From: Cellvibrio sp. KY-GH-1
GTDB taxonomy: Bacteria > Pseudomonadota > Gammaproteobacteria > Pseudomonadales > Cellvibrionaceae
Assembly (NCBI RefSeq): GCF_008806975.1
Contig: NZ_CP031728.1
Location: 1,860,001-1,924,000 of the forward strand
DNA length: 64,000 bases
Direction of reading: 5' to 3'
A program made the translations under genes and the position numbers. The notes beneath the pieces were generated by a model, which saw nothing but the letters and a program-made list of their open reading frames with translations, made no database searches and was not told the origin of the DNA. Below, piece by piece: positions 2,292-16,101 of this stretch (positions within the stretch are counted from its first letter, which is position 1; every line of letters begins with the position of its first letter).

Positions 2292-2492
2292 ATGGAAACT
2301 ACAAATATCGTTAACCTCGGTAAACGTTCCGAGGAGCAATTGGATTGGGTGGGCGATTTAACGCCGCCCCACCTGAGCATTACACCCGACACTCCGGAAA
2401 TTGCAACAAGACTGCTTGAGGCCGGATATACAGCTGTCGCCACATATGTGCAACCACTTAGCGAACTGCAGCAAAAGCAAGGAGAGGCGTGA
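2292..2492 (+). CDS. Small unrecognised protein between parA and parB
   Basis: A 66-residue acidic protein (METTNIVNLGKRSEEQLDWV at the N-terminus) starting 10 bases after the parA stop and ending in a TGA that shares bases with the ATG of parB (TGATG). That overlap suggests translational coupling and supports a real gene. It has no membrane segment, signal peptide or recognised domain. Its place in the partition operon suggests a replication or partition accessory role, but the sequence does not show which. Confidence 0.6.
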   Translation: METTNIVNLGKRSEEQLDWVGDLTPPHLSITPDTPEIATRLLEAGYTAVATYVQPLSELQQKQGEA

Positions 2493-4075
2493 TGAATAAG
2501 CCCTCTATCGCAGATCGTCTTAACAAACCGCATTTAGGTGAGTCCTCGTCCGCAGATTTAATTCTGCCCGATCCTGTTATTAAAACTCGCGTGCCCGTAA
2601 CACTGGACATTCTGATTGCGTATAACCGCAACCCTAGAAGAACCCGAAACCCGTTGTATGACGAAATTAAGGAGTCTATTCGCAACAAAGGTTTAGACCA
2701 TCCGCCCATTGTTACGAGAAAAAAACCTGCCGACCCGTACATGATCAAAAAGGGGGGGAACACTCGCCTGCAAATTTTGAATGAGCTGTGGAAGGAAACC
2801 GGCGACGAGAAATTTTTTAAATTTGATTGTGATTTCGAGCCATGGACAAGTGATCGAGACAATCTAGTTAGTCACATGGTTGAGAATGAAATGAAAGGGA
2901 ATACCCTTTTCATTGAACGCGCTCTTGCTGCCTATGACCTGAAGGTTGAATTGGAAGCTGAGAAAGGTGAGCTATCGACCCGAGAGCTAGCACGGTTAAT
3001 TACAGCTGAAGGCTGGACATTAAATCAAGCGAATCTTGGGCAAATGCTATACGCACATGGAACGCTTTTTCCAATCATTCCGGAAGCCTTTTGGTCGGGG
3101 GTCGGAATAGATCGTGTAAAAAAGATCCGGAAGCTGCTCGAAACCTGTAAAACATTTTGGGAATCTGTTGCGCAAAAAAATGAAGGAAGCTTTGATGAAA
3201 TTTGGAAACCTGTTTTCACATCATTGGATGGTGATGGATTTGATATAGACAAAGCGGAGTATGAGCTGTGTTCAGCGATGTCCGCAAAACTCAACTCACC
3301 GGTATTGCAATTACGTGCGGAAGTACAGGCCATTAGTGAGGGCTTATCCAAAGGTGGTAATCGTCCGAAGGATATTATTGCTGAGGCAAATGCCCATGCA
3401 CAGTTGGATAAACAATCGGGTACCGGTGCAGCCAAGCCACCGGTACAGCCCAAGCGCCCACCTGTGGAAAGCCCTCCGGACACTGGTAGCAATCAGGAAA
3501 CTGATCCATCCCCTGAAAACGAGAATGTACAGGACAGTCGGGAAGCTGCGAATAAATCAGCCCCTGTAGTTCGTCATGTCTACGGTGATCTCAGTTCGAT
3601 GCAATACCTTTTAGATTATGAGGTTTCCTCACTCAAAGAACTCGCGTACCAAGCAGCAGTGGATTATGCCGATACGATAGGGCTCTCGGAGTATGTTGAT
3701 TATCTTGAGGAGGATGGCTGGCACACCGGTTACCGGATGTTGCCGCCCACCCAACTTGATTCTGACCTGATTCTGTATTGGGTTACCTTGTGGTCGTACT
3801 CACACGCATTAACCCCGCCTATTTCATTGTTGACTGCAATGAATGAGCTGCTGGAGATATGCCCTACTCTTACCAAAGACAACCTCTTAACGTTGCTCGC
3901 ACTTGGTACCGCTTTTAAAGGCCGACTGATGGGCCGTCAAATCAGTGATCCTGATGCTAACCCAATTCAATGGCAATCACTCACTGAACTGGAAGCCATT
4001 GTTAGTTTGCTGGTGGACTACCGCACACATGCACCTCACAAACTCAACGAAAACGTTGAAGCAGGAGGTGAATGA
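2492..4075 (+). CDS. parB: ParB-family protein of PFGI-1-type ICE
   Basis: A 527-residue protein matching the ICE-specific long ParB family (TIGR03764). The N-terminal third has the ParB nuclease-like fold motifs: YNRNPRRTRNPLYDEIKESI (box I) followed by KGGNTRLQILNELW. A helical DNA-binding middle follows (LSTRELARLITAEGWTLNQ). A Pro/Ser-rich linker lies at about residues 300-360, and then a C-terminal domain with no family I recognise. The ATG at 2492 is preferred over the GTG one codon upstream because GGAGAGG sits at 2481-2487. It would bind a centromere-like site and load on DNA together with ParA, but the parA here is truncated. Confidence 0.9.
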   Translation: MNKPSIADRLNKPHLGESSSADLILPDPVIKTRVPVTLDILIAYNRNPRRTRNPLYDEIKESIRNKGLDHPPIVTRKKPADPYMIKKGGNTRLQILNELWKETGDEKFFKFDCDFEPWTSDRDNLVSHMVENEMKGNTLFIERALAAYDLKVELEAEKGELSTRELARLITAEGWTLNQANLGQMLYAHGTLFPIIPEAFWSGVGIDRVKKIRKLLETCKTFWESVAQKNEGSFDEIWKPVFTSLDGDGFDIDKAEYELCSAMSAKLNSPVLQLRAEVQAISEGLSKGGNRPKDIIAEANAHAQLDKQSGTGAAKPPVQPKRPPVESPPDTGSNQETDPSPENENVQDSREAANKSAPVVRHVYGDLSSMQYLLDYEVSSLKELAYQAAVDYADTIGLSEYVDYLEEDGWHTGYRMLPPTQLDSDLILYWVTLWSYSHALTPPISLLTAMNELLEICPTLTKDNLLTLLALGTAFKGRLMGRQISDPDANPIQWQSLTELEAIVSLLVDYRTHAPHKLNENVEAGGE

Positions 4076-4632: not shown

Positions 4633-5961
4633 ATGAGCAAAGAACTCGACATTATTGCGCGACAGATCGACAAGGCAGAGCGTGACCTCATTAGTCAACG
4701 CTCCTATGGCGACGATGACGATGGTATGGCGGTGTTATTTACCGGCAACCATCATGATTCATTCCCGCGCTATTTGATCCTTAATCGCGATCTGAATGCC
4801 ATCGACAAAGTGACGTGGCAGGTCATTCGATTAACGATCAATGATCCCACGCGTCCAGGATCGACACCGAGACGGAATGAGTTATCGGCAATGATCGGCT
4901 GTTCGGCACCGACGCTGACCGCTAGCCGCAATATGTTGCGGATTTCACGCTGGATGACTTTATGCAAAACCGTACGTAAGCAAGGTCGTTTCGTTGGTGA
5001 CATTTACCTGCTTAATGACGAACCTCTCTCGCTGATTAGCACATTAGATTTTGACCCTACTTATGTCCGGTTTTTGGAAAGCCAGTGTCAGTCAGGAAAT
5101 AAACGCCTGAGGGAAGCCGCGGCAAAAGCACTGGAGGAAATTGGCGCACTGGAGACTTCCAACCCGCCGACTGAAAGTGATGTGTTTTTAAATCGCTTGA
5201 ATCGTATGTTTGTAATGGACGGGGACGCGACAGCCGAACCCCCAGTGCCAGATGGTCACCAGAGAAAGAATCTTTCTCCGGTGAATGACAGCGCGGAAAC
5301 TGGTCAAAATAGCGAAACCTATACGGAATCAATACTTACGAATCACCAGAGTAAGAATTCTTCTCCGGTGGAAACCCACCAGAGAAAGAATCTTTCTCCG
5401 GCTGAAAACGACCAGAGCAAAATTTTTACTTCGGCTGAGAAAAAAATTTCTTTCTCCGGCGGTAGTAGTAGTAGTAGTTTTAATAATAATAAAAATATAT
5501 CTACTGCGCGCGCGATAGAGAACGATCAGGATCAACAGAGTCTGGCGAATTACCTTGAAATCACCCGTCGAGGTCGCTGGGGAACAAATTCGGATCACGA
5601 AAATGCCTGGACGAATCGCTACTTGCCATGGCTTAACCACGCCGTGTTCGAGCGATACACAATGATTCTCACTGCTGGCCGCGACAGCTGTTTGCCAGCG
5701 ATCTACCGAAAAATTAAAAAACTTCCACCCCATGGCCAAGAGCTGGTGCTCATGCAATTGCTGGGACACACAGCAGCTGCATCTCACGGTTGGCGTGAAC
5801 ATATCCGTGACCCCATCGCCTACACCCACAAACTTGTTTCGTTGCAAATGGCCAACGAGCTTGTGCCTGACGAATGGGCTCTGGAATTGATTCGCTGTTA
5901 TTACGATAAGGCTAGTTCTCAGCCACCCGCGTTTACTGATAATCCAAACAGGGTTTGGTAA
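4633..5961 (+). CDS. STY4528-type replication protein
   Basis: A 442-residue protein of the pathogenicity-island replication protein family (STY4528-like). The N-terminal half resembles a winged-helix initiator: PRYLILNRDLNAIDKVTWQV, then RNELSAMIGCSAPTLTASRN and a RWMTLCKTVRKQGRFVGDIY wing. The middle (about residues 205-285) is a low-complexity linker with repeats HQRKNLSP, HQSKNSSP, HQRKNLSP and DQSKIFTS, encoded by near-palindromic DNA repeats. An AT-rich tract encoding SSSSSFNNNKN follows. The C-terminal domain (WGTNSDHENAWTNRYLPWLN onward) is conserved in the family. It probably starts replication of the excised element. The linker DNA may itself be the origin. Confidence 0.83.
   Translation: MSKELDIIARQIDKAERDLISQRSYGDDDDGMAVLFTGNHHDSFPRYLILNRDLNAIDKVTWQVIRLTINDPTRPGSTPRRNELSAMIGCSAPTLTASRNMLRISRWMTLCKTVRKQGRFVGDIYLLNDEPLSLISTLDFDPTYVRFLESQCQSGNKRLREAAAKALEEIGALETSNPPTESDVFLNRLNRMFVMDGDATAEPPVPDGHQRKNLSPVNDSAETGQNSETYTESILTNHQSKNSSPVETHQRKNLSPAENDQSKIFTSAEKKISFSGGSSSSSFNNNKNISTARAIENDQDQQSLANYLEITRRGRWGTNSDHENAWTNRYLPWLNHAVFERYTMILTAGRDSCLPAIYRKIKKLPPHGQELVLMQLLGHTAAASHGWREHIRDPIAYTHKLVSLQMANELVPDEWALELIRCYYDKASSQPPAFTDNPNRVW
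5257..5460. repeat. Iteron-like palindromic repeats inside the rep gene
   Basis: Four 27-bp units lie at 5257-5283, 5344-5370, 5377-5403 and 5410-5436, with a partial fifth unit ending at 5460. Units 1 and 3 share 25 bases; units 2, 3 and 4 sit on an exact 33-bp period, about three helical turns. The core GAGAAAGAATCTTTCTC is a perfect dyad with one centre base, flanked by CACC and GGTG. Unit 4 is the most degenerate. The same DNA codes for the protein repeats in the rep linker, so both levels may be under selection. Confidence 0.75.
5461..5513. other. AT-rich tract beside the iteron-like repeats
   Basis: After the repeats come five GTA-type triplets, then TTTTAATAATAATAAAAATA, then an alternating GCGCGCGCG run. 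The AT-rich part is the kind of easily melted DNA found next to initiator-binding repeats in replication origins. It stays in frame and codes for a Ser/Asn linker. No box matching DnaA consensus was confirmed nearby. Confidence 0.45.
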
Positions 5962-5962
5962 T

Positions 5963-6206
5963 GCAATAGGCTATTGCGCTTTGAAGAGGCACAGAACAGG
6001 TACCGGAGTGAAGTAGCCTACTTCACTTTGAAGAGGCACAAAGCAGGTGCCAGAGTGAAGTAGCCTACTTCATTTATGAATAAATCTGAGTTTGGCAGTT
6101 CGACAGGCTATCGAACATTTGCGGTAAGCAAAAGCAAAGTTAGAAAGGCTATCTGACTTTTAGGGCAGCACAGATAGTGGGATTGAGTTCGGTAGCCTAC
6201 CGAACT
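5963..6206. repeat. Six hairpins with a conserved TAGGCTA core
   Basis: Six dyads directly downstream of the rep stop, centred at 5970, 6017, 6064, 6107, 6148 and 6196 (spacing 47, 47, 43, 41, 48). Examples: GCAATAGGCTATTGC, GTGAAGTAGCCTACTTCAC (at 6008 and nearly again at 6055), GTTCGACAGGCTATCGAAC and GTTCGGTAGCCTACCGAAC. The 7-base centre is conserved while the arms change on both sides together, so pairing is kept; only the fourth and fifth have a central mismatch. The spacers share loose GCACAAAG-like words, and 5979-6025 and 6026-6072 are close direct repeats. No reading frame spans the array. Confidence 0.85.
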
Positions 6207-6482
6207 TTCAAGTGAGCAAAGAATTGGGAAGGTAGTCCGGAAATAGTGGAGGCCGATTTCGACGGCCGGGCGACCTAGCAAGATATGCACGTCTTGTTTT
6301 GGAAAAAGGCTTGTGAATTTTAACGACCGCGCACAAACGCTGCCGCGATTGTTCAGTTGTCACTTTGTGCGTTACTGGCTGAACAATCTTTAAGATTCCG
6401 AACTATCCACTAACGAGGGTTTTGGCTGTGTTCAGTACAACCGAACCTGCCGGACTACCTTCCCACCTATTTTAGTTAAGCA
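6207..6482. other. Noncoding structured region upstream of the HTH gene
   Basis: No convincing gene is seen. GGGAAGGTAGTCCGG at 6226-6240 recurs as a perfect inverted copy at 6450-6464, about 210 bases away. Between them GATTGTTCAG (6347-6356) pairs perfectly with CTGAACAATC (6379-6388), and GCGCACAAA (near 6330) can pair with TTTGTGCG (near 6364), so two stems compete. This may be a leader, a replication-control RNA region or part of the origin. Confidence 0.5.
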
Positions 6483-6497
6483 ATGAGGATATGCGCA

Positions 6498-6776
6498 ATG
6501 AACATATCAAACGCACAGGCGAGCGAAGTGTTAGCTGTGTTGCAAAAAAATAATATTCCTTTGCATCTGGGAGTGACGCTGCTCTGTAAGGCTAAAGGAA
6601 TCAATGTTAATGATTTGGCTGATGGAGGTGGAAGAAATCGCAGTTACCTTCGCCAAACACTGACTGGTGTTTTCAGTCCAGCAGAGGACTTTCGTAAATA
6701 TGTTGCTCGCAAACTCGGTGTGGATCCTTGGCTCTATATACCTACTGATATTTTCGATGAAGCTGAGCATTCGTAA
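6498..6776 (+). CDS. Small helix-turn-helix regulator candidate
   Basis: A 92-residue protein beginning MNISNAQASEVLAVLQKNNI. Residues of about 30-75 (GINVNDLADGGGRNRSYLRQ and then ARKLGVDPWLYIP) follow the pattern of Cro/C1- or Ner-like helix-turn-helix proteins. I choose the ATG at 6498 because GAGG lies 9 bases upstream; an in-frame ATG at 6483 has no good ribosome site. A 16-bp palindrome starts 12 bases after the stop, and two more copies occur downstream, so this protein is a candidate for the repressor of the module. That link is inference. Confidence 0.6.
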   Translation: MNISNAQASEVLAVLQKNNIPLHLGVTLLCKAKGINVNDLADGGGRNRSYLRQTLTGVFSPAEDFRKYVARKLGVDPWLYIPTDIFDEAEHS

Positions 6777-6871: not shown

Positions 6872-7834
6872 ATGACAACCAATGAATCACATGTTGTGGA
6901 TGCGGAAGGAGCGAACGCCACCACACAAGACACCAACTTGCTAAACAATCTTGATCGGATGTTTTCACCGACCGCACAAAAAGAAACACCCAAAGGGCGT
7001 GCAGCGCGTCGTAACCAGCCAGGGCTTTCTGGTGAGCCTTCCGAGCGCTCAGTGAGCTTGCCACCATCGATGCAAATGGGAGCCACGCTGAAACTTCATA
7101 CGCACCTTGCGATTAATTTATTTCGCGGTCGTCGCGGTGATCGTTCCAAGAATATTCGTCAAATTGTGGGCATGTCGCTCTTCGCACGTCAGGCGGGTTT
7201 AATTTGGACAGCAGCGAAGAATGACGATCCTTATGCGGATCAATGCCTGATTGAAATTGAAGAAGCCCATAAAAGAACTAAAACCTTGCTCGATGAACGC
7301 GAGAAAGCGTTAAGCGAATTGATTGAAGGCTTGGAAGGTTTTGAAGTGGACGTGCAGACCTGTGCTGAGCCGCTGGAGATCCCCCTCAACTTTCATTCGC
7401 CCTGGGCTTACCGTTCAGTGTTGCTCTTGTTGCAATACGACAAGATCGTGAGGCTGGGATTAACAGCTCACCACGTGGGATTTATCGGTGACGCTGAATG
7501 GAATGATGTGATTACGGATTCCGGGCGCGCCATGCGGAATTTGTTTGAAGAAGTAAACCGCTGGGTATTCACCAATGTCACACGCGACGATATCCGTAAA
7601 AATACTAAAGTAGCCAAACGTGCCCAAGGCCAGTACCTGGAAAAGAAAAATAATCGCTTGGTAATTGAGGATGAGGTGATGGAAGGCACCAAGCGCGCAT
7701 CCATCGCGCCGCGTAATCCTGATTTGGAAAAATATCTCTCAACGAAACGCACACAGCATTCAGTTCCATCCAAGCACCACCCCTCACAGCCAGAAGCGCA
7801 GCAAGATGCACCTGAAAACACTTCATCAAATTGA
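6872..7834 (+). CDS. TIGR03761 (PFL_4669-type) ICE protein
   Basis: A 320-residue protein matching the TIGR03761 family, a marker of PFGI-1-class integrating elements with no assigned biochemical role. Recognised parts are LKLHTHLAINLFRGRRGD, then GMSLFARQAGLIWTAAKNDD (about residues 95-115) and SPWAYRSVLLLLQYDKIVRL (about 170-190), and a long C-terminal region with TRDDIRKNTKVAKRAQGQ. The tail is polar and low-complexity. No transmembrane segment is seen. GGAG lies 5 bases before the ATG, and the palindrome at 6789 is in the upstream region. Elsewhere the family sits beside DUF3158, as here. Confidence 0.88.
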   Translation: MTTNESHVVDAEGANATTQDTNLLNNLDRMFSPTAQKETPKGRAARRNQPGLSGEPSERSVSLPPSMQMGATLKLHTHLAINLFRGRRGDRSKNIRQIVGMSLFARQAGLIWTAAKNDDPYADQCLIEIEEAHKRTKTLLDEREKALSELIEGLEGFEVDVQTCAEPLEIPLNFHSPWAYRSVLLLLQYDKIVRLGLTAHHVGFIGDAEWNDVITDSGRAMRNLFEEVNRWVFTNVTRDDIRKNTKVAKRAQGQYLEKKNNRLVIEDEVMEGTKRASIAPRNPDLEKYLSTKRTQHSVPSKHHPSQPEAQQDAPENTSSN

Positions 7835-14941: not shown

Positions 14942-15235
14942 ATGAGCAAGAAACCAACCCCAAAAGAGAATAAGAAGTATACAGCCGAGTTCAAAAGTGA
15001 GGCCATTAAACTGGCCGAACGATTGAGCGTAGCGGAAGCCGCCGAAAAACTGGGCATATATGCCAGTCAAATTTACAGTTGGCGTAGCGCACTCAACAAT
15101 AGCCGTACTGATGTTGAAAGAGAATCGCTCCTCGCCGCTGAAAATGCACGCCTCAAGCGTCAGCTCGCCGAGCAAGCAGAGGAGCTTGAAATCCTAAAAA
15201 AGGCGGCTACCTACTTCGCGAAGCATCAAAAATAA
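14942..15235 (+). CDS. IS3-family OrfA (copy 2)
   Basis: Identical in protein sequence to the OrfA at 472-765: a 97-residue helix-turn-helix protein with a coiled-coil C-terminus, AGAGGTG ribosome site before the ATG, and an A6G frameshift run at 15196-15202 leading into OrfB. Because both copies are intact, either could supply transposase for the whole bounded segment. Confidence 0.92.
   Translation: MSKKPTPKENKKYTAEFKSEAIKLAERLSVAEAAEKLGIYASQIYSWRSALNNSRTDVERESLLAAENARLKRQLAEQAEELEILKKAATYFAKHQK
15196..15202 (+). other. A6G slippery site for -1 frameshift, IS copy 2
   Basis: AAAAAAG in the last codons of OrfA of the second copy, in the same context as 726-732; the -1 frame is open into OrfB. 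Confidence 0.8.
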
Positions 15236-15249
15236 AACGCTACGAATTT

Positions 15250-16101
15250 ATGCTGACAAATAGCGCGCTATATTCAATCGCGATGATGGCGCGCGTTCTG
15301 TTGGTTTCGCGAAGTGGGTATTACAGCTGGCTTGATAATCGTGAAATGGTTAGTTGGCGCATGCAGCAAAGAGAAGCGATTGATGCGTTGGTAAAGGCAG
15401 CATTTGAGGCTGGAAAAGGCCGGTATGGCGCGGATCGGATTTTTTATGATTTGGCGGAGCAAGATAATCCGCTCGACATAAAAACCATTCGGAAAAGCCT
15501 GAAACGGCAGGGGTTAATTGCAAAAGCGGCCAAGCTGTTCAAGGTGACTACGGACAGCAATCATACACTGCCTGTTGCGCCCAACCTGTTGGCTAGAGAT
15601 TTTTCTGCGCAACAACCTAATGAAAAATGGGTGACCGATATTACTTATATTCAAACTACAGAAGGTTGGTTGTATCTGGCCGTGATGATTGATTTATATT
15701 CTCGAAAAGTTGTTGGTTGGTCGATGAGCAAACATATTGATGCGCAATTGGTTTGTGATTCATTGATGATGGCGTTGTGGCGACGAAAATTCCCAAAAAG
15801 CGTTATTGTTCACAGTGACCGTGGCAGCCAATATGTATCGCATGCGTTTAGGGATTTACTGGAAAAATATTCGCTAATACAGAGTATGAGTCGCAAGGGT
15901 GATTGCTGGGACAATGCGTGTGCGGAAAGCTTCTTTCATTCACTTAAGGTTGAGCTGGTTCACGGCGAGCCATTGCTAGATGGAAAGCACACGCGCGAGT
16001 CTATTTTTGAATATATCGAAGTGGATTACAATCGCTACCGCCGTCACAGCGCTATTGGCTTTGTTAGCCCCGAGCGCTTTGAGGCAAAAAATGTATGTTA
16101 G
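15250..16101 (+). CDS. IS3-family OrfB transposase (copy 2)
   Basis: A 283-residue DDE transposase part, the same as copy 1 except Tyr for His in GKGRYGADRIF. All three catalytic residues are in place (VTDITY, HSDRGSQY, NACAESFFHSL). The frame is open upstream to the slippery site at 15196, so OrfAB is the likely active form. Most IS3 relatives have Tyr or His at this site, so both copies are probably functional. Confidence 0.93.
   Translation: MLTNSALYSIAMMARVLLVSRSGYYSWLDNREMVSWRMQQREAIDALVKAAFEAGKGRYGADRIFYDLAEQDNPLDIKTIRKSLKRQGLIAKAAKLFKVTTDSNHTLPVAPNLLARDFSAQQPNEKWVTDITYIQTTEGWLYLAVMIDLYSRKVVGWSMSKHIDAQLVCDSLMMALWRRKFPKSVIVHSDRGSQYVSHAFRDLLEKYSLIQSMSRKGDCWDNACAESFFHSLKVELVHGEPLLDGKHTRESIFEYIEVDYNRYRRHSAIGFVSPERFEAKNVC

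Follow-up and report, generated by a model that had tools for sequence, protein, structure and literature searches.

Palindromes with co-varying arms behind the rep gene of a PFGI-1/pKLC102-type ICE as putative duplex sites for an ICE-encoded homodimer

The 64,000-nucleotide stretch of Cellvibrio sp. KY-GH-1 analysed here (the window; NZ_CP031728.1, positions 1,860,001 to 1,924,000) carries at 5963..6206, as read directly from its sequence, six odd-centred palindromes between an STY4528-type rep gene and an AcaB/PFL_4669 gene. The arms of these palindromes co-vary, both between and within related elements. We propose that the array probably consists of duplex, two-fold-symmetric recognition sites for a putative homodimer encoded by the ICE. 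It would be a row of double-stranded sites of about 17 bp, each with one central base pair, the predicted reader being a homodimeric DNA-binding protein of the ICE; the row, which directly follows rep in the plasmid-like region for replication and maintenance, would seed a nucleoprotein complex. The symmetry of the units, their odd centre, the reach of pairing to that centre, the recurrence at one place and the confinement to the array in the scanned stretches are properties of the sequence; that a dimer binds, and what the complex would do, we infer.

Results

The array and its setting

The six centres lie at 5970, 6017, 6064, 6107, 6148 and 6196, with steps of 47, 47, 43, 41 and 48 bp, which bears out the preliminary description, where six dyads had been placed behind rep with centres 41-48 bp apart. 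No strand is assigned to the units. In order, they are unit 1 (5960..5980, GCAATAG-G-CTATTGC, 7/9 pairs about its centre), unit 2 (6007..6027, AGTGAAGTAG-C-CTACTTCACT, 10/10), unit 3 (6056..6072, TGAAGTAG-C-CTACTTCA, 8/8), unit 4 (6098..6116, GTTCGACAG-G-CTATCGAAC, 8/9), unit 5 (6139..6157, GTTAGAAAG-G-CTATCTGAC, 7/9) and unit 6 (6186..6206, AGTTCGGTAG-C-CTACCGAACT, 10/10). When pairs are counted outward from the 1-nt centre, k=1 being the innermost pair adjoining it, four of the six units pair fully to k=7 or beyond and the other two have one or two mismatches. The TAGSCTA centre, said earlier to be kept, is exact in four units, the others having CAGGCTA and AAGGCTA. It had also been said that the arms differ and still pair: they differ strongly and are palindromic, but units 4 and 5 carry one and two mismatches in nine pairs. 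Against a null of 1000 dinucleotide shuffles of 5900-6480, the real stretch holds six non-overlapping odd-centre dyads with at least 7/9 pairs (shuffles: mean 0.79, maximum 5) and four with at least 8/9 (mean 0.07, maximum 2).

Profile matches to ParB (TIGR03764), DUF2857, STY4528 (NF040582), AcaB/PFL_4669, SSB and topoisomerase place the array in an ICE of the PFGI-1/pKLC102 type. The STY4528-family replication protein gene, rep (4633..5961, + strand), scores 132.7 bits against NF040582 (cut-off 130), and the AlphaFold2 model of its product, compared with the PDB, has a winged-helix-like domain, a low-confidence stretch and a C-terminal helical domain (mean pLDDT 69.5, pTM 0.42). Candidate readers of the array are encoded on the + strand by an ICE_PFGI_1 ParB-family gene (2489..4075; TIGR03764, 243.5 bits, cut-off 143.75) and by an AcaB/PFL_4669-family gene (6872..7834; TIGR03761, 175 bits; PF08900, 186.3 bits). 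In the 5.76-Mb host genome, a single contig, another AcaB-Rep-ParB set accompanied by 15 units follows after 71 kb. Two near-identical transposase-like gene pairs, which we read as IS3-type, are found at 472-1631 and 14942-16101. A ParA-like ORF (1683-2282, 199 aa) starts right after the first pair and matches ParA_partition from profile position 64 onward only; considering this start and this partial match, the parA beside the IS may be interrupted and the ICE of the window may be damaged.

We also compared the region with described elements. An excerpt of the 2009 description of PFGI-1 from Pseudomonas fluorescens Pf-5 (PMC2647930) locates a putative oriV directly upstream of PFL_4669. In the A+T-rich half of this region a perfect 23-bp palindrome is directly repeated four times, and four direct repeats of 46 bp follow, each containing an imperfect 21-bp inverted repeat; the excerpt also states that PFGI-1 encodes no Rep protein, and within it neither co-variation nor a choice between duplex and hairpin is analysed. 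Like PFGI-1, the window has four palindromes inside rep, followed by six repeats spaced 41-48 bp apart, whose odd-centre palindromes measure 15-21 bp, although the arm sequences differ. The place between rep and the PFL_4669/AcaB gene, the repeats of about 40-60 bp with odd-centre inverted repeats of about 17-21 bp, and a second, upstream set of four palindromes beside A+T-rich DNA (two of them with 8/12 pairs) are all found in the window. As the same two kinds of palindromic repeat were described for PFGI-1 in 2009, the array belongs to a kind already in print. The array of pKLC102 likewise lies between the STY4528 and PFL_4669 genes, with more units, other spacers and other arms. The earlier suggestion of a new hairpin repeat family is not borne out, since PFGI-1 and pKLC102 carry the same architecture, while its placing of the array in the putative replication region of this ICE family agrees with the putative oriV of PFGI-1 and with pKLC102. 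Part of a review calls the oriV of pKLC102 postulated, and an excerpt of PMC7685784 gives up to 30 copies of this element per chromosome in one strain.

The second set of palindromes lies within rep itself. Four 25-bp odd-centre palindromes on the + strand at 5258..5435, candidate Rep iterons, have their centres at 5270, 5357, 5390 and 5423, with 11, 8, 10 and 8 of 12 pairs, respectively, and (TAG)5 followed by AT-rich DNA at 5463..5502 (+) is a candidate unwinding element. These palindromes are the counterpart of the four 23-bp palindromes of PFGI-1 and of the TGAGTTCGGAATCCGAACTCA-type palindromes in several Pseudomonadaceae elements. Replication more likely starts at the four palindromes and the AT-rich stretch inside rep than at the array, and 5258-5502 is a candidate for an origin embedded in the initiator gene, an arrangement known for RepA_N initiators and lambda O. 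For IncU RA3, a source excerpt puts oriV at the 3' end of repB.

Recurrence in related elements

A search of the same place in related ICEs had been proposed as a check. From 147 distinct TIGR03761 places, listed in the class, the window's own order, two further families and its own genus, 101 loci were examined (the window and 100 others), weak or partial matches and some near-duplicates being excluded. Of these, 60 have one or more units in which k=2-8 all pair, 35 have at least two such units and 18 at least three; shuffled sequences gave a mean of 4.35 loci with one fully paired unit and none with two. In the stretch examined, 41 of the 101 loci had no unit with k=2-8 all paired, and at least six loci (L044, L045, L047, L050, L051 and L129) have ParB, Rep and AcaB together with no fully paired unit between. 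In the arrays displayed, neighbouring units are mostly 31-58 bp apart (77 bp in L126). pKLC102 (NC_019202.1) has 16 units at 57-bp steps between its STY4528 gene and its PFL_4669 gene; eight are distinct, and six of these are perfect palindromes, each of a different sequence. Its first description reportedly calls the 57-bp repeat array oriV.

Some arrays have features of their own. In L178 and L188, units occur both behind rep and ahead of acaB, and the array appears split by the several kb of other DNA in between. About 1641 bp before acaB in L038 lies a chimeric unit, joining the left arm of one unit type to the right arm of the next, which suggests recombination between units. The 77-bp repeats of L126, at about -938 to -168 relative to acaB, have a second dyad, TTTCGC-TAG-GCGAAA, between the main ones; its k=1 bases are non-complementary, and here, in contrast to the main units, a hairpin with a loop of 3 nt is conceivable.

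Co-variation of the arms

Units were re-detected in each element by a half-site matrix, which avoids picking them by their own symmetry, and right halves were permuted between units. Left and right arms match at 0.889 in the window compared with 0.682 after permutation (P = 0.0045), so the claim that a change on one arm is matched on the other stands, and it holds across related ICEs too. Within single elements, P was below 0.05 in 8 of 18, the window among them. In a pooled set of 107 distinct units from 20 elements (pKLC102, L081, L112 and 17 of the 18 above), matches were above permutation at each of the positions k=1 to k=7, with P no higher than 0.0008, and not above it at k=8 and k=9, the excess of symmetric variation being largest at k=4 and k=6. 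The innermost pair, k=1, also co-varies inside elements (P = 0.0002). Among the 69 unique 17-mers, those that are complementary at k=1 comprise 52 distinct 8-nt arms.

Duplex sites or hairpins

As a hairpin loop needs about three bases, k=1 is unpairable in a hairpin and expected to be free there; this position played no part in unit detection. Results showed that k=1 is complementary in 66 of the 69 unique 17-mers and in 98% of 173 units. For background, we used stems from 80 kb of pKLC102 and from the window, found by the same detection outside the array and in-gene repeats, of which 5/22 were complementary at k=1, as were 15/69 slightly shorter stems from the same DNA. A first control does not fit: in 304 kb of upstream DNA preceding the intergenic stretches of these loci, k=1 was complementary in 0.74 of 145 units, far above chance. 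We ascribe this to palindromes inside genes and to some arrays that fell outside the intergenic limits, both still in that count. Stems of 7 numbered 191 with a gap of 1, 6 with a gap of 2, 170 with a gap of 3 and 10 with a gap of 4, even-centred stems therefore being rare, and in the pooled arrays pairing declines from k=9 outward. All 35 units, distinct per element, of seven Cellvibrio-genus elements have C or G at the centre (C 22, G 13; intergenic GC 42-52%): C or G either way round is a strand-neutral C:G pair, as expected for duplex sites. In the CTATCCCC units of other elements the centre is mostly A or T (14 and 15), without strand preference. Mismatches in the units of 17 elements were G·T 12, A·C 10, A·G 9, C·T 7 and others 5, with no clear G·T wobble preference over A·C in these 43 mismatched cells, which are small numbers.

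The preliminary description had taken co-variation as a sign of single-stranded DNA hairpins or RNA stems, and this step is not supported. Hairpins or cruciforms might be selected as priming sites, single-strand promoters or protein-bound hairpins in conjugative transfer or strand-displacement replication; the arms are complementary and co-vary between and within elements, SSB and topoisomerase genes lie near the array, and the predicted DNA folds of 126 distinct units have energies of -2.9 to -8.6 kcal/mol (the 15 structures displayed have a 3-nt loop). As the units would fold stably, the case against hairpins is not about stability. It is that k=1, which would lie in the loop, is under a pairing constraint and co-varies within elements, that even-centred stems are rare although they would make equally good hairpins, that the centre is restricted to C or G with either base allowed, and that G·T is about as frequent as A·C. 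Hence, we consider selected hairpins distinctly unlikely. An array that is transcribed and acts as a row of RNA hairpins is very improbable: the flanking genes are co-directional, making read-through possible, and the arms pair, but the k=1, parity, centre and wobble evidence counts against RNA as it does against DNA hairpins, G·U is not tolerated above A·C, and no Rfam family reaches threshold (best 26.8 bits vs 79).

Downstream of the array, window 6215-6480 is a strongly folding RNA candidate (MFE -95.4 kcal/mol, z -4.9) with a long closing stem, 6225-6240/6450-6465, and is directly followed by a 97-aa ORF (6483-6776) with an HTH-like look and a weak SlrR match (E 0.0022). In L038 this module is 75% identical along 480 bp, and 6 of the 67 pairs predicted show two-sided compensation between the two sequences; in L034 and L035 blastn finds only its last 25-26 bp, and Rfam has no match to it.

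Discussion

We asked which role and which reader the proposed duplex sites might have. Scanning with matrices built from the arrays' own units placed all 16 sites of at least 18.4 bits in pKLC102 (about 95 kb) inside the array, the next site having 14.7 bits, and all six sites of at least 19 bits in the 64-kb window inside the array, the next having 14.0. This confinement speaks for a centromere, an origin or copy-control array, or local operators, and not for a dispersed regulon. The role that we consider most likely is that of a plasmid-type centromere, with putative parS/sopC-like sites for the ParB of the ICE; a copy-control or iteron array read by Rep and operators read by AcaB are close alternatives. 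In the F plasmid, the sopC locus, close to genes of parA-parB type, repeats a unit of about 43 bp in tandem, and every copy contains an inverted repeat. As in sopC and other parS arrays, the window has tandem inverted-repeat sites (5960-6206) near a parB gene (2489-4075), whereas the sopC repeats share one inverted-repeat sequence and the window arms differ within the array, the binding of ParB being putative. We favour ParB for this sopC-like layout and for a weak resemblance of some half-sites (TGTTTC.., TTTAG..) to parS and KorB half-sites.

Comparison across elements singles out no one of the three proteins. Over 35 elements, half-site distance correlates with protein distance at rho 0.484 for ParB, 0.483 for AcaB and 0.463 for Rep (partial correlations 0.124, 0.133 and 0.019), and site-associated protein columns do not distinguish among ParB, AcaB and Rep. 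ParB is over the cut-off in 71 of 80 genomes, and some elements have ParB and no site. Each candidate has a case against it: G779 has sites and no TIGR03764 match, although its element may be damaged; G521 has sites and no NF040582 match; and L180 (G596, contig C30) has sites, ParB and Rep, AcaB not being found.

This last element also speaks against the idea, in itself compatible with duplex sites, that the array arose by multiplication of operators which AcaB or another regulator reads at the acaB promoter. In favour of this idea, the acaB frame has in many elements a unit some 60-210 bp ahead of its first ATG/GTG, often near -130, and acaB has kept the sites beside it in G856 and G262, whose full ParB and Rep genes are about 110 and 70 kb away, respectively. 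In G262, however, a broken rep fragment adjoins acaB, and the linkage of sites and acaB may merely mark where the element broke. Excerpts of PMC9927553 and PMC11493245 describe AcaB of IncC plasmids as a transfer regulator. Up to 16 units exceed what an operator needs, and the scanned pKLC102 and window stretches hold no other strong sites; multiplied operators are, in our judgement, rather unlikely.

Symmetric drift inside one element fits neither a plain half-site reading, in which the halves should vary independently, nor hairpins, in which k=1 should be free and yet co-varies. Three processes could each contribute: reading by a symmetry-coupled dimer, template switching from arm to arm, and the mixing of units that come from different elements. 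Template switching is known to correct quasi-palindromes, and dimer sites with degenerate positions might owe their symmetry to it: one arm would be copied onto the other, and positions that are not read would drift in step, which is again compatible with duplex sites. The symmetric variation at k=4 and k=6, the occurrence of single-mismatch units (43 mismatched cells over 17 elements) and the chimeric unit of L038 are in line with this. Against it, k=1 is beyond the reach of fold-back switching, and the drop in pairing at k=9 and beyond needs selection as well, so that symmetry made by mutation appears quite unlikely as the explanation. Somewhat bolder than plain duplex sites, and offered tentatively as a possibility, is a reading in which the sites conserve two-fold symmetry rather than sequence, in an ICE centromere or copy-control array: each element would use many half-sites, each usually mirrored up to the central C:G pair, either through a symmetry-coupled dimer, with both subunits forced into the same one of several reading states, or through a dedicated copying process. 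We judge the symmetric drift within one element to be the novel part of these results; in the open-licence literature, searched by element terms rather than by property, we found no paper on it.

In conclusion, co-varying arms need not imply a hairpin, and the innermost pair can discriminate. ICEs like pKLC102, PFGI-1 and ICEclc disseminate genes for metabolism, virulence and resistance, while their replication and extrachromosomal upkeep are poorly worked out. Our comparison splits the single oriV of 2009 into two palindrome sets, candidate Rep iterons within rep and a separate array of putative duplex sites, each of which now carries testable predictions.
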